Source: a virus. From it: a DNA stretch of 37,980 nucleotides. The notes under the pieces were generated by a model that saw nothing but the letters and a program-made list of their open reading frames with translations, was not told where the DNA came from and searched no databases. Position 1 is the stretch's first letter. Each line of letters begins with the position of its first letter. Below, in pieces: positions 3,768-31,095 of this stretch. The position numbers and the translations under genes are program-made. The DNA lies in IMG/VR virus record IMGVR_UViG_3300022918_000228, positions 1 through 37,980 of that record. One strand, written 5' to 3'.

Positions 3768-4562
3768 TTAAAATAGCCCTCCCAATGCATCAGGCTCCCA
3801 GTTCATGATTACCAGTTCGCTGACGACTTCTGTCTGCCCCTGCCGCTGGTTTGTAGTTGTGTACCTAATATCCACTGTCTCAAAGTGAAAATCCGCAAAG
3901 ACGCGGCGAATGTCCGGATGGTCATTGATGCTAACCATCACCTTACCCTTGCAGCGGCGCATGAAATCAGCCATCCGCTCATAATTCTGAAATGGAAAGT
4001 CGACGCCATAGCCAGCCGTTTTCCAGTATGGGGGATCCATATAGTGGAAAGTGTGCGCCCGGTCATAACGCTCTGCGCACTCAAGCCAGGGCAAGTTTTC
4101 CACGTAGGTACTGGCGAGGCGCTGCCAAGCTGCTGATAGGTTTTCCTCAATCCGCAACAGGTTGATGGCCGGGGCGGTCGTGGCAGTCCCGAACGTCTGC
4201 CCGCTCACCTTGCCAGCGAAGGCATGGTGCTGCAGGTAGAAGAAGCGGGCGGCGCGTTGAATATCAGTTAGGGTTTCCGGGCGGGTCATCTTCTGCCATT
4301 CGAAGATCTGCCGGGAGCTGAGCGCCCATTTGAACTGGCGCACGAACTCTTCAAGATGGTTCTGCACCACCCGGTACAAGCTGACCAGCTCTCCGTTGAT
4401 GTCGTTCAGGACTTCGACGGGGGCAGCCTGGGGGCGCATGAAATAGAGGGCCGCACCACCGGCGAATACTTCAACGTAGCATTCGTGGGGTGGGAAAAGA
4501 GGAATGAGACGGTCGGCTAGGCGGCGCTTGCCACCCATCCATGGAACGATGGGGCTAGACAT
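3768..4562 (-). CDS. D12-class DNA N6-adenine methyltransferase (second, phage-type)
   Basis: This is a 264-aa Dam-class enzyme with PWMGGKRRLADRL (7-19), VFAGGAALYF (32-41) and the catalytic DPPY (176-179), typical of methylases at the left end of Pseudomonas and lambdoid late operons, where they may protect phage DNA from restriction. I chose ATG 4562 (MSSPIV), which gives the usual methylase N-terminus. The longer frame to 4622 would add an unrelated 20 residues and run through a LexA-like box at 4579-4594. An AAAGG lies 11-14 bases upstream of the chosen start. It follows Rz/Rz1 in the leftward direction and may have its own SOS-responsive promoter. Confidence 0.88.
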   Translation of the reverse strand: MSSPIVPWMGGKRRLADRLIPLFPPHECYVEVFAGGAALYFMRPQAAPVEVLNDINGELVSLYRVVQNHLEEFVRQFKWALSSRQIFEWQKMTRPETLTDIQRAARFFYLQHHAFAGKVSGQTFGTATTAPAINLLRIEENLSAAWQRLASTYVENLPWLECAERYDRAHTFHYMDPPYWKTAGYGVDFPFQNYERMADFMRRCKGKVMVSINDHPDIRRVFADFHFETVDIRYTTTNQRQGQTEVVSELVIMNWEPDALGGLF

Positions 4563-26930: not shown

Positions 26931-27401
26931 TTAGAGGCGCGCCCGCCCTGCTCCACGGTTTGTGACCTTGCAATGATCCCCTTCACGCTGCTGGCCGGAG
27001 TGACCACGCCGGGTGCCGCTGCGGATGACCAAGATCAACATCACCTGCTGATGCAGCCGATGAACCCAGTTGCGGTAAGTCCGGTCGGCTCCCTCTGGGA
27101 TGTCGACCATTCGCATCTGCTCCCGAACAGATGCCAACCCGCAGTAACGGCTAACAGCCAAAGTCGCTAGACCATCGAACCCCTTGCGCTTGAGTTCGGC
27201 TACTGCTGCATCCACTTCAGCCGCAATCATATCCATCCCAACGCCGGTGCCACCGAGGATACGTGACCCTGGAGTGCCACGAGGAGGAGCGCCGCCCCAC
27301 TCAATGATTGAGCCCATCTGGCTACCGAGCCCGCCCCCCTGGCCGAACTGCCTCGACTGCTCTCCCCAATGCACCATCAGATCGTCAATTTCCTTGATCA
27401 C
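26931..27401 (-). CDS. Q-type antitermination protein
   Basis: The 156-aa protein starts VIKEIDDLMVHWGEQSRQ and contains AVAELKRKGFDGLATLAVSR and a Cys-Gly YCGLASVREQMRM segment, close to the Phage_antitermQ family. Q proteins load onto RNA polymerase at the late promoter and allow it to pass terminators. I chose GTG 27401 with GGGGAAAGGG upstream; the frame to 27461 would read into the repeat array and add VGLGYLCVGF-type repeat translation. The promoter, terminator and late operon lie immediately downstream as in lambda. Confidence 0.75.
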   Translation of the reverse strand: MIKEIDDLMVHWGEQSRQFGQGGGLGSQMGSIIEWGGAPPRGTPGSRILGGTGVGMDMIAAEVDAAVAELKRKGFDGLATLAVSRYCGLASVREQMRMVDIPEGADRTYRNWVHRLHQQVMLILVIRSGTRRGHSGQQREGDHCKVTNRGAGRARL

Positions 27402-27425: not shown

Positions 27426-27716
27426 CCCAACACACAAATACCCCAACCCAACACAAACCAAACACAGCTAAAACCCTTTAAAAACAAGGCACTAAAACTA
27501 CTTGTGTTGGGTGTGTTGGGTTGGTTGGGTTTATTTGTCCTCGCATAAGGAAAAAAACGCGGCGTTGAACATGGTGCATTTATCGTCACGCATGCGCGCA
27601 CGCGACGCCAAACCCAACACACCCAGCACACGGCGCTACAACGCACGGATTTCGGGACCTTGAACTGTGTCGAGTAGTCAAAACCAACCCAACACATACC
27701 CAACACACCCAACACA
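27426..27716. repeat. CCCAACACA iteron array, putative replication origin
   Basis: Exact copies of CCCAACACA lie at 27426, 27447, 27613, 27688, 27699 and 27708 (plus) and, inverted as TGTGTTGGG, at 27503 and 27512. Near copies are at 27458, 27521 and 27622. Some are directly abutted (9-bp steps). AT-rich stretches lie between clusters (27467-27502, 27530-27560). The array fills the 328-bp gap between the prim-pol replication gene and Q. Overlapping frames here translate to VLGVLGMCWVGF-like low complexity and are not genes. Confidence 0.8.
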
Positions 27717-27729
27717 CTTTTCGATGTAC

Positions 27730-30411
27730 TCATGCCGCAGCCGCCTTCATATGGTCCCAACCATCCACGTTCCAGCCCGCCAGACGCGCCTTACCGCGCC
27801 ACGCATCGACCGCCTTGCCCAAGTCCGGCGCCTTCATTGATGGGGGTAGGGAAGCGTCAGGGTCGTCGGGCACAAAGAACGCACCGAAGCGGCGATCATT
27901 ACGCTCTGTCCAGGGTATCGACCGGGTCTTCTCCACCTCCGAGCTGATAAACAGGGAGAACTTTGTCTGGCTCATGACGTGCTCTTTGTTGCGCTGACAC
28001 CATTCAAGGAACAAGGCATAGAGGTCGGTGGAGAGACAGGCGCCCCAGAGTTCCTGACCCAGTTCGCCATAACGCCAGAGGTGAAGGAACGTCTGCCAAC
28101 CAGCCCGACTCAGCGCCACTAATCGCTCACGAGACGCGGTACTGGGCGGCCGGGTCCGCTGGTTGAAGTCACCCAGGTCAACGCGCAACAGCCAACCATA
28201 GAGCGCAGCCACCCCACCGGACTCAAGCTCACGCCCGATAGCCTTTTGTCGTGCGACCGGCAACGTCTCCATGGGCCACATCACCAGCATGCGGCGATCA
28301 CTGTCGCTGATCGGCCAAGGCAGGATCTCGTTACTTAGGAAGACCGCATTCATGTGGTTGGCCTCTTCCCAGCCATTGATGAACTTCGATTCCATCCGCA
28401 CGGTCTTGCCGGTGACCAAGTGCTTGATCTTGCCCACCTGGTTGTAACGCTGGTCGCGGCTGACAACCTCTTCGAACACAGCCCACATTTTGCGGCTTTG
28501 CCAGGCGTTGAAATTGCTCTCCAGCTGGGTCTGTCCAACAGTGGCCGCGTACTGTCCGTACAACGCGCCGAAAGTATCGGCGAACAACAGGCTCTTACCC
28601 GAGCCCTCCATCGTCGAATGCATCAGCACGGCGGTATCCATCTTTGCGCCAAGGTGCTGCAATGGATAGGCGAGCCAACGGGTCAACCACTGGGTCGCGG
28701 CTTCATCGTGGTTGCACAGGAAGGAAATCAACCAGCGCAGGTTCTCACACGCGGCGTCATCATCAACTGGCTCCAGCGGCAAACCGTCGAACGTGTTGAT
28801 GTAGATACTCGGGTCTTTGGTCATCGTCGGATCAAAAACAATGTGTTCGACATCCACGACGCGGCGCTCGCTGCTGTTCAACCACAGCGGGTACGTATCG
28901 CCCAGTGCCATCTTCACTGCGCCCTCGGCGATCCTGCGTTTCTTTTCCCGGTCCCACACATCTTTGGTCCCGTCGATATAGACGTACCGCTCGACCGGAC
29001 GCATGCCCAGCGCCCCGCCCTTCTTGCCCGCCATTTTCCGGGTTTGCTCGATCTCCTTTACCTGATCGTCAGCAATCAGTTTCTTGTTGGTGTCCTCCAG
29101 CCACTGCTTGGCGAGCGGCTTCCCGATGCGGGCCTCAAATGCAGATTTCTTCATCACCCGGGATTTGTCGAAATCCCACACCTGTGTCGTCCCTTCAACC
29201 AAGGCGAAACGGCGGAGTACTTGCTCAATGGTCAATTCCTCCCCCGGCCCCCCGTCAGCAGCAGAAGCCGCCTCGGCGGCAGGGCCAGGCTCGCTGCTCT
29301 CGTCAGTTGGGGCGGGGGGAAGATCGCTCGAACTGGGCCGCGTCGACTGCATACCCAACATGCGGGCAGCCTCTTTCACCGCCTTGGACTGATCACCACC
29401 GTGCTCAAGCAAACAGAACACCTCGAACGCATCGTTCTGGTGGCCGTTAGCCAAGGGGTCAGCCGCATGGTGCGAGTAAACCTTGCCATCATCCGAGACA
29501 GTAATACCCGGCAAACCGGTACTGCTCTGCGGATACAGCCACTTGCTGCCACGTTTTGTATAACCGTGGGCACGCAGCATTTCCTGCACATCATGGCAGC
29601 GGTTAAATTCATCAATGACCGAGGGCCGATTACCCGCCCCCTGAGCGGATTTGGGCTTGGGTTTCGACTTGGTTACAGGCTTCTCGGCCTTCGGACCCCA
29701 TGGACAGGCTGCCTCGGCATCGCGCTTGAAAATGTCCCAGTTCTTCCAGACATTCAGCAGATCGCCAATCAGAACAGGCAGGCCAGCAGCGTCAGGGGGC
29801 TTGCGCCAGGTATAAGGCTTGCCTGTGCCCGGATGGATCGAAGGCGGCAACACGTCCTGAACCAGGCCCGCGCGCAGCTCGAAAACTGTAATCCGCTTGT
29901 AGTTTTCCGCGTCCGCCTTGTATAGGGCCTCGCGGGCAGTGTCACCGGCGTCCCGAGCGGCGCTTGCCTTCAACATGATCGACTTATGAATCGATCCGTC
30001 CGGGTCGTTCTCGTTCGGCCAAGACAGCGCGTGCCGCGTCAGATCGATACCGTCCGGGACTTGAAACAGGACACGAAAACGCAGCGGGTTGCCGACCACA
30101 GTCGGGTACGCCAGCGCCAATGCATCCAGATCGAGTTCCAGCAGCTCGTACAGAACGTGCCGTGTCCATTGCACATCGTCCACATCTAAGGAACAGATGC
30201 GACTCGGCCCCAGCACTACGCCCAGGTTGTGATGAGGGTTCTTTTCCCAGAATGCCTCGGCCTTCGCAGGATCAACAATGTAATTACCCGGCTGATTCCA
30301 GCCCTTGCCCTTTGGGCCTTTCTCGCCGGGCTGAATAGGAACAAGTGCCAGACCAAAGGTTTCACAGTAACGACGCGCCCAAGTGGAAATAGGTGTAGGA
30401 CGGTCAGTCAT
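27730..30411 (-). CDS. Replication protein: prim-pol plus SF3-like helicase
   Basis: This 893-aa protein combines three parts. The N-terminal bifunctional primase/polymerase domain (about 1-215) has the metal-binding SLDVDD (Asp76, Asp78) and SIHPGTGKPYTW (191-202). A middle CHC2-like part (265-352) lacks zinc ligands and is followed by an acidic Ala/Pro/Ser linker. The DUF5906/NrS-1-like helicase domain has Walker A MEGSGKS (601-607), Walker B WAVFEEV (643-649) and an Asn sensor in FLSNEILPWP. It resembles P4-alpha-type initiators that bind iterons, open the origin, prime and unwind. It overlaps the zinc-finger gene by 4 bp, and an iteron array lies at its 3' end. Confidence 0.9.
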   Translation of the reverse strand: MTDRPTPISTWARRYCETFGLALVPIQPGEKGPKGKGWNQPGNYIVDPAKAEAFWEKNPHHNLGVVLGPSRICSLDVDDVQWTRHVLYELLELDLDALALAYPTVVGNPLRFRVLFQVPDGIDLTRHALSWPNENDPDGSIHKSIMLKASAARDAGDTAREALYKADAENYKRITVFELRAGLVQDVLPPSIHPGTGKPYTWRKPPDAAGLPVLIGDLLNVWKNWDIFKRDAEAACPWGPKAEKPVTKSKPKPKSAQGAGNRPSVIDEFNRCHDVQEMLRAHGYTKRGSKWLYPQSSTGLPGITVSDDGKVYSHHAADPLANGHQNDAFEVFCLLEHGGDQSKAVKEAARMLGMQSTRPSSSDLPPAPTDESSEPGPAAEAASAADGGPGEELTIEQVLRRFALVEGTTQVWDFDKSRVMKKSAFEARIGKPLAKQWLEDTNKKLIADDQVKEIEQTRKMAGKKGGALGMRPVERYVYIDGTKDVWDREKKRRIAEGAVKMALGDTYPLWLNSSERRVVDVEHIVFDPTMTKDPSIYINTFDGLPLEPVDDDAACENLRWLISFLCNHDEAATQWLTRWLAYPLQHLGAKMDTAVLMHSTMEGSGKSLLFADTFGALYGQYAATVGQTQLESNFNAWQSRKMWAVFEEVVSRDQRYNQVGKIKHLVTGKTVRMESKFINGWEEANHMNAVFLSNEILPWPISDSDRRMLVMWPMETLPVARQKAIGRELESGGVAALYGWLLRVDLGDFNQRTRPPSTASRERLVALSRAGWQTFLHLWRYGELGQELWGACLSTDLYALFLEWCQRNKEHVMSQTKFSLFISSEVEKTRSIPWTERNDRRFGAFFVPDDPDASLPPSMKAPDLGKAVDAWRGKARLAGWNVDGWDHMKAAAA

Positions 30412-30614
30412 TTACTACGCTCCCGGAGCGTCTGGCAATCAATACAGGTTTCGCAACCCACAACAGCAAGGCGGCGAGGCTCGGGAATCGGCCCACCGCA
30501 ACCCACACAATCAAGAGCGCTGACCGCAGATGCGGCAACCTGCTGCCGACGGCCAAGAGCAACCTGCAGCAGATAGTCGGCCTGGTCGTTAGCCATATCG
30601 ATGACATCAGCCAT
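30408..30614 (-). CDS. TraR/DksA-type zinc finger protein
   Basis: The 68-aa protein has an N-terminal helix (VIDMANDQADYLLQVALGRR) and a C-terminal C4 zinc finger, DCVGCGGPIPEPRR with Cys36 and Cys39, then CETCIDC with Cys54 and Cys57, as in phage TraR-like proteins. Such proteins bind in the secondary channel of RNA polymerase and alter promoter choice. ATG 30614 (MADVID) has GGAG-like bases upstream; longer frames in this region are shadows. Confidence 0.85.
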   Translation of the reverse strand: MADVIDMANDQADYLLQVALGRRQQVAASAVSALDCVGCGGPIPEPRRLAVVGCETCIDCQTLRERSK

Positions 30615-31095
30615 TGGCGCGATCCTCCATGGCCTGCCGAGCACCGGCCATGATGCCAAGCACTGCTCGGATAACATCGACGCCATGCTTATCCAGCAAC
30701 GCAACCTCATGCAGCTCCCAAACCTCGTCTGCTGCGCCGCTGTGCATGCTGGTCACGAACTCGCCCGTTTCAGCGAGTAGTTCACCAACGGCCTTGAGCG
30801 CGTCTTTGGTGGCAGCAACCGCTTCAGGCTTGTACCAGACGGCACCCGCCGGACGCACGAGGGCGTCAAGCAGCAGCGGACTAGCAGTCAGACGAATGAC
30901 CTCCTCCAGCTCATCGGGATTCAACCACCGGCGCTCTTCATCCAGCTTGAGCTTCTTCTGCAGAGTGTCGTTATCCAACACCATGTCATGAGCGAGTGCG
31001 GTAACACCGCCGCGGTAGTCACGCCCGGCACGATAAAGCGCCTGACGCAGTGAAAGGACCTGACCAGCGTCAGGCAAAAGATCTGTGCGACTCAT
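30607..31095 (-). CDS. CII-like regulatory protein (CP76 family)
   Basis: The 162-aa protein contains AGRDYRGGVTALAHDMVLDN followed by TLQKKLKLDEERRWLNPDEL, which closely fits the Phage_CP76 (CII) family: an HTH near the N-terminus used to choose between lysis and lysogeny. ATG 31095 (MSRTDLL) is chosen; the frame to 31233 lacks support. A 23-bp inverted repeat begins 2 bp upstream of the start, a likely operator. It is the second gene of the cro operon. Confidence 0.87.
   Translation of the reverse strand: MSRTDLLPDAGQVLSLRQALYRAGRDYRGGVTALAHDMVLDNDTLQKKLKLDEERRWLNPDELEEVIRLTASPLLLDALVRPAGAVWYKPEAVAATKDALKAVGELLAETGEFVTSMHSGAADEVWELHEVALLDKHGVDVIRAVLGIMAGARQAMEDRANG

Follow-up and report, generated by a model that had tools for sequence, protein, structure and literature searches.

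We report that an array of 9-bp iterons, located directly 3' of the primase-helicase gene of a temperate phage, is most probably (at a probability of roughly 0.88) the replication origin of this phage, served by its own primase-helicase and organised as two halves of six sites each. This reading builds on an array beyond chance expectation, its linkage to the helicase gene, its conservation among relatives in which the iterons have changed, and its left/right symmetry. The window, i.e. the whole stretch of DNA analysed, is the virus record IMGVR_UViG_3300022918_000228 (37,980 bases). Domain and PHROGs annotation identified genes for integrase, CI-type repressor, CII, terminases, portal, protease, capsid, major tail and tape measure, and since the capsid, terminase, portal, protease, major tail and tape-measure genes are present the genome is that of a complete temperate tailed phage and not of a satellite.

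The iteron array and its gene neighbourhood

The primase-helicase (initiator) gene, assigned on the basis of Pfam, PHROGs, AlphaFold and Foldseek, occupies positions 27730-30411 on the minus strand and encodes an 893-aa protein. A DksA/TraR-type zinc-finger gene (30408-30710, minus strand) directly precedes it, and several relatives have such a gene in the corresponding neighbourhood. The array is intergenic, with the stop of the helicase gene at 27730 on one side and, on the other, the gene at 26931-27401 (minus strand), for which the GTG at 27401 is most likely the start. It begins approximately 13 bp beyond the helicase stop codon, and this is also its place in the relatives. The downstream gene had been named Q in the initial annotation; this name rests on its position and on relatives, and the window gene itself matches only phrog_4300.

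As had been noted from the letters of the window alone, eight exact copies of the 9-mer CCCAACACA are present at 27426-27716, six on the plus strand and two inverted. The expectation for the whole window is 0.28 copies, and in 100 shufflings of its sequence a count of eight was never reached, which rules out chance or a simple repeat. There is no exact copy in the window outside the array, and one-mismatch copies elsewhere are scattered. Together with four degenerate copies the total becomes twelve, and a core of approximately 85 bp separates them into two sets of six; along the helicase sense the order is three forward, one inverted, two forward, core, three inverted and three forward. The left outer triplet consists of exact plus-strand copies (iterons 1 to 3: 27708-27716, 27699-27707 and 27688-27696) and is followed by the degenerate, inverted iteron 4 (TGTGTCGAG; 27666-27674, minus strand), which lies 44 bp from the left inner pair, i.e. 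iterons 5 (27622-27630, plus strand, one mismatch) and 6 (27613-27621, plus strand, exact). Beyond the core, the inverted right inner group comprises the degenerate iteron 7 (TTGGTTGGG, alignment consensus AAACCCAACAaACCCAACACAC; 27521-27529) and the exact iterons 8 (27512-27520) and 9 (27503-27511), all on the minus strand, while the right outer triplet on the plus strand is formed by iterons 10 (27458-27466, one mismatch), 11 (27447-27455, exact) and 12 (27426-27434, exact).

Iterons 5 and 10 were identified by mismatch search and alignment of relatives, and iterons 4 and 7 are at positions conserved in the twelve-position alignment, which included 35 representatives out of 141 close relatives. 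Three near copies had been listed initially; those at 27458-27466 and 27622-27630 are independent one-mismatch sites, whereas the one at 27442-27450 overlaps an exact copy.

Mirror symmetry, core and spacers

Using a strict matrix caller, six was the most common number of sites both on the left (16 of 33 clusters) and on the right (17/33); the total was twelve in 13 of 34 clusters with eleven, in eight clusters, as the next most frequent, and a looser caller also gave a peak at twelve. For the window itself the strict caller returned nine sites only. Twelve sites as the design of the origin is thus well, but not perfectly, supported. In 22 of 32 origins, the left and right spacers between the inner group and the next site differ by no more than 1 bp, to be compared with a mean of 5.7 and a maximum of 14 such origins in 10,000 rounds of permutation. 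Spacer length varies between origins yet the two sides pair (32/32, 34/34, 35/35, 37/37, 43/43, 44/44 and 48/48). The window spacers are 44 and 45 bp when the two degenerate sites are included, and 66 and 55 bp according to the strict caller, which leaves them out. The clusters are mutually related, such that the symmetry and composition tests do not represent fully independent cases.

The array region has a GC content of 49% compared to 57% for the whole window. The gaps had been described as AT-rich, and this is correct for the right spacer (27467-27502, 33% GC) and for the A+T-richer part of the core (27530-27580, 41% GC), which carries the box TTTTTTTCCTTATGCGAGGA (minus strand reading) and is the presumed melting region; the core also has an alternating purine-pyrimidine G+C block (27585-27610, 73% GC). 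Core length is approximately 82-93 bp in most clusters, with the G+C block at the core start, a box like TTTTCTCACGCGAGGA at the core end in 25 of 33 cores, and a minimum GC of 0.23 in one of eight bins. Long alternating runs are present in all 33 cores (mean longest run 16.1 nt vs 5.7 nt in shuffled sequences). The G+C block and the core box appear complementary by eye, which is suggestive.

With respect to the spacers, several relatives have an IHF-like site in the right spacer, and in several origins such sites are mirror-placed. Over the whole origin regions there are seven exact WATCAANNNNTTR sites (0.65 expected) and 44 with at most one mismatch (14.6 expected). In the window, the right spacer carries, by our reading, a two-mismatch IHF-like site and there is none with one mismatch or fewer.

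The inner arrays are opposed across the core, and in the window the inner arms are 19-nt perfect inverted repeats relative to each other and to the outer copies. A structural origin could therefore be considered, in which the prim-pol would recognise the shape of a long stem-loop or cruciform extruded from the inverted repeats. Such an origin has been proposed for plasmid pRN1, where an essential cis element directly 3' of the gene for the prim-pol-SF3-wHTH protein ORF904, i.e. at the same place as the array, is a stem-loop, and a similar one has been proposed for BIP-1 (PMC4234260). The array region also folds better as RNA than shuffled sequences (z -2.6). However, the outer triplets share one orientation in the window as well as in its relatives; they are therefore unmirrored and do not pair with each other, and by this layout an extended stem-loop is not the only element. 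Pairing is possible mainly for the inner arms across the core of about 85 nt, regular steps of 9, 11 and 32-48 bp with free orientation suit protein sites better, and pRN1 is without iterons. We consider recognition by shape unlikely. An RNA element as such was rejected, given that the array region has no Rfam match and that the observed fold is what inverted iterons would yield anyway.

Conservation and linkage to the helicase gene

Across a first set of approximately 150 relatives, the iteron 3' of the helicase gene is the same in practically all members from Pseudomonas. More distant relatives show the same layout with other iterons (TGTGTCAGG, GACTAGGGT, GTGCAGGG, TACAGGGT, GCCTAGGG, GGCAAGGG, TTACCGGA, GCCGGAGG, TGCCGTTC and AGTTGAAG). 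Hence, nearly all relatives with this replication protein, distant ones included, have an array adjoining the helicase gene, which supports the origin assignment made initially. Among clusters below 78% identity, the 420-bp window densest in 8-mer repeats coincides with the helicase stop in 33 of 34 (two, L168 and L194, by ties; L172 is the failure), while an 8-mer count of at least four was reached in 17 of 2,617 background windows, one or two of which represent the array of L163 itself. When viral contigs were searched at the DNA level alone with the 19-bp tandem iteron, 80 loci emerged, 74 of which have the 3' end of the helicase gene within 500 bp; in the other six the stored stretch ends 18-226 bp away from the iteron. 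The array is not a trait of all DUF5906 helicases, as most of those outside this clade lack such an array. Cumulative GC skew had its extremes mostly at the record ends and was uninformative.

The primase part varies, being PrimPol in the window, PriCT_2 plus TOPRIM in L155, L208 and L135, and TOPRIM in L170 and L158, with helicase and array unchanged. The next gene also differs between relatives: it belongs to phrog_4300 in the window, to the Q-like phrog_79 in L158, to the Q-like phrog_127 in L340, and to phrog_1231, which is not Q-like, in L012 and L329, where array and helicase are still present. That the array is kept while both the primase domain and the next gene are exchanged counts for the origin reading. 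In L163 and L168 the C-terminal domain of the helicase is a separate small ORF and the array follows this ORF; the constant partner of the array is the helicase with its C-terminal domain. In these two genomes the presumed DNA-binding domain is naturally separated from the rest of the helicase.

The replacement of the neighbouring gene also bears on whether the array could be a regulatory site, i.e. an operator or antitermination site of the Q-type gene or of late transcription, and no origin. The array does lie between the helicase gene and the Q-position gene, and close relatives of the phrog_4300 gene always have both helicase and array where the stretch is long enough. The regulatory reading is nevertheless not supported because the gene is replaced, even by a family that is not Q-like, while the array stays. 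Moreover, no convincing promoter or terminator was found in the array region and a twofold symmetry about a melting core would be unexpected for an operator, and we therefore regard this alternative as very unlikely. As the array and the Q-like gene adjoin, the array may have a second role in transcription. In plasmids, iterons have further functions in copy control and incompatibility, but a partition, incompatibility or copy-control site instead of a start site is highly improbable here, since the genome has an integrase and a CI-type repressor, no partition gene was seen among the window proteins scanned, and one compact, symmetric site beside the initiator gene suits initiation, to which copy control could be an extra effect.

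Other features were observed among the relatives. The primase part and the helicase are encoded by two overlapping ORFs in different frames in L155, L157, L158, L159, L135 and L146, with the start of the helicase ORF overlapping the stop of the primase ORF in L158 (ATGGCGTTGACTGA). Translational coupling and frameshifting may be considered as candidate readings. In L126 and L152 there are two iteron variants per origin, where the outer sites are mostly of the TGTGTTGGG type and the inner and inverted ones of the TGTGTAAGG type. Moraxella phage Mcat6 (L419) and Halomonas phage H4907 (L420) have TGTGCAGG and TCAGACAG arrays, respectively, right 3' of the primase/helicase gene, and two DUF5906 genes outside the main clade, in L441 and L429, have nearby repeats of their own (GTCCCACT, six copies, and GGGTGACG, four copies). 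In BPP-1 (L442), TTGCCTCGT tandem repeats, two plus two inverted, are located approximately 480 bp past the primase stop around an A+T-richer stretch. It may represent the same origin in a minimal form; given that it is only a small 2+2 dyad at that distance from the stop, BPP-1 was not counted among the arrays.

The initiator, its proposed action and known systems

The 893-aa protein carries a PrimPol domain (residues 12-209) and a DUF5906 SF3-type helicase domain (598-707) according to Pfam and PHROGs, in keeping with the earlier prim-pol-helicase call. The AlphaFold model predicts a winged-helix domain at approximately residues 759-850 with the order helix-helix-helix-wing. In Foldseek searches the whole model matched the C-terminal region of the NrS-1 polymerase (E 1e-14), followed by D5/E5 and SaPI5 Rep; for the isolated C-terminal domain matches were weak, the best being Cdc6/Orc1 on origin DNA (E 0.18).

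Iteron similarity tracks protein identity (r 0.82). At the level of segments all correlate with iteron similarity at r of about 0.79 and none is prominent, and among distant pairs the wHTH segment shows a negative correlation with iteron similarity. Since no segment stands out, co-evolution alone does not prove recognition of the iteron by the C-terminal domain. The predicted recognition helices nonetheless pair with iterons: SHTKFSG with TGTGTCAGG, S(Q/H)TKFSL mostly with TGTGTTGGG, (S/T)ETKL with CAGGGT or AAGGGT, REKF with CCTAG, and AHKF with CCGT-type iterons. This pairing is suggestive, but phylogeny alone could also yield it. More than 20 natural iteron/recognition-helix pairs provide a panel for a specificity code, e.g. 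L820 to G together with TGTGTTGGG to TGTGTCAGG.

We propose that the primase-helicase, whose gene lies just upstream of the array when read in its coding sense, would bind the 9-bp iterons through its C-terminal winged helix, and that each half, with its six sites, would load a single SF3 hexamer, giving one on either side of the core. The two helicases would then melt the A+T-rich part and travel outward, giving a bidirectional start, with the attached primase priming both forks. In each half, a bend in the spacer, conceivably of the IHF type, would probably bring the inner group and its neighbouring site (a distance of 44-45 bp in the window) into one complex. The ordered initiator loading suggested initially is in this way refined to two mirror-image half-origins, a layout given by site order and spacer symmetry, on which the loading itself would take place. 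A more far-reaching version, to which we give somewhat less than even odds, is that twelve iterons, in two mirror-image sets of six with matched 32-48 bp spacers, form a template placing exactly two SF3 hexamers, one for each half, while a bending protein of the host, acting at the IHF-like sites, connects the outer sites to the inner ones, and that lineage-specific iterons create dozens of mutually blind replicons with one geometry. The strict mirror geometry offers a testable model for two-ring assembly of self-loading SF3/D5-type helicases, a question common to SV40-type and D5-type helicases.

The P4-type parallel drawn initially applies in so far as a primase joined to an SF3 helicase occurs with repeats. 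In the satellite phage P4, the alpha protein has the primase fused to an SF3 helicase and its winged-helix domain binds origin repeats (PMC4234260). Its primase is of the TOPRIM type, whereas the window has PrimPol and TOPRIM appears only in other relatives. P4 replication uses ori plus the distant crr, while the window has one array only. As there is no second, crr-like repeat cluster, the rep-ori of SaPI/PICI elements (SaPIbov1, SaPI1 and EcCICFT073) is the closer functional parallel.

Among solved structures, that of the primase-polymerase of the deep-sea phage NrS-1 (6k9c) is closest to the helicase part. The recognition site published for NrS-1 is TTTGGTTA (PMC8718748), which is absent from the window. 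NrS-1 (L418, AB746912.1) has 11 copies of GTTACACT with at most one mismatch, of which six are forward and five inverted. They immediately follow the primase stop (locus position 4505) and overlap the annotated ORF NRS1_29. This array is a candidate origin distinct from the published site, and its layout differs from the mirror pattern of the window. In phage lambda, the ori bound by the O protein likewise has iterons beside an A+T-rich melting region. Lambda has its iterons within gene O and loads the DnaB helicase of the host, while the initiator in the window is itself the helicase.

In SaPI/PICI elements the origin is also located directly 3' of the initiator-helicase gene, the C-terminal domain is used for recognition and the iterons vary between elements (PMC6092414, PMC7581432). 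The DUF5906 domain, the Foldseek match to SaPI5 Rep and the predicted wHTH point to an initiator of the same type in the window, that is a D5/SF3 helicase with a putative C-terminal DNA-binding domain. In the open-access literature searched we found no description of this origin in these phages, nor, for SaPI/PICI, of the 12-site mirror geometry, the conserved G+C block or the core box. The kind of origin is known. The novelty lies in finding it in complete phages, in its mirror-image layout of two six-site halves and in how widely the iteron sequences range. Our data extend rep-proximal iteron origins to numerous complete temperate phages, from Pseudomonas as well as from other bacteria, and this is relevant to the source of satellite replicons. 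By analogy, the origin is built like those of the SaPI/PICI satellites, which are without capsid and tail genes of their own, but it resides in complete phages that have them; the window phage would work like a PICI and is not one.
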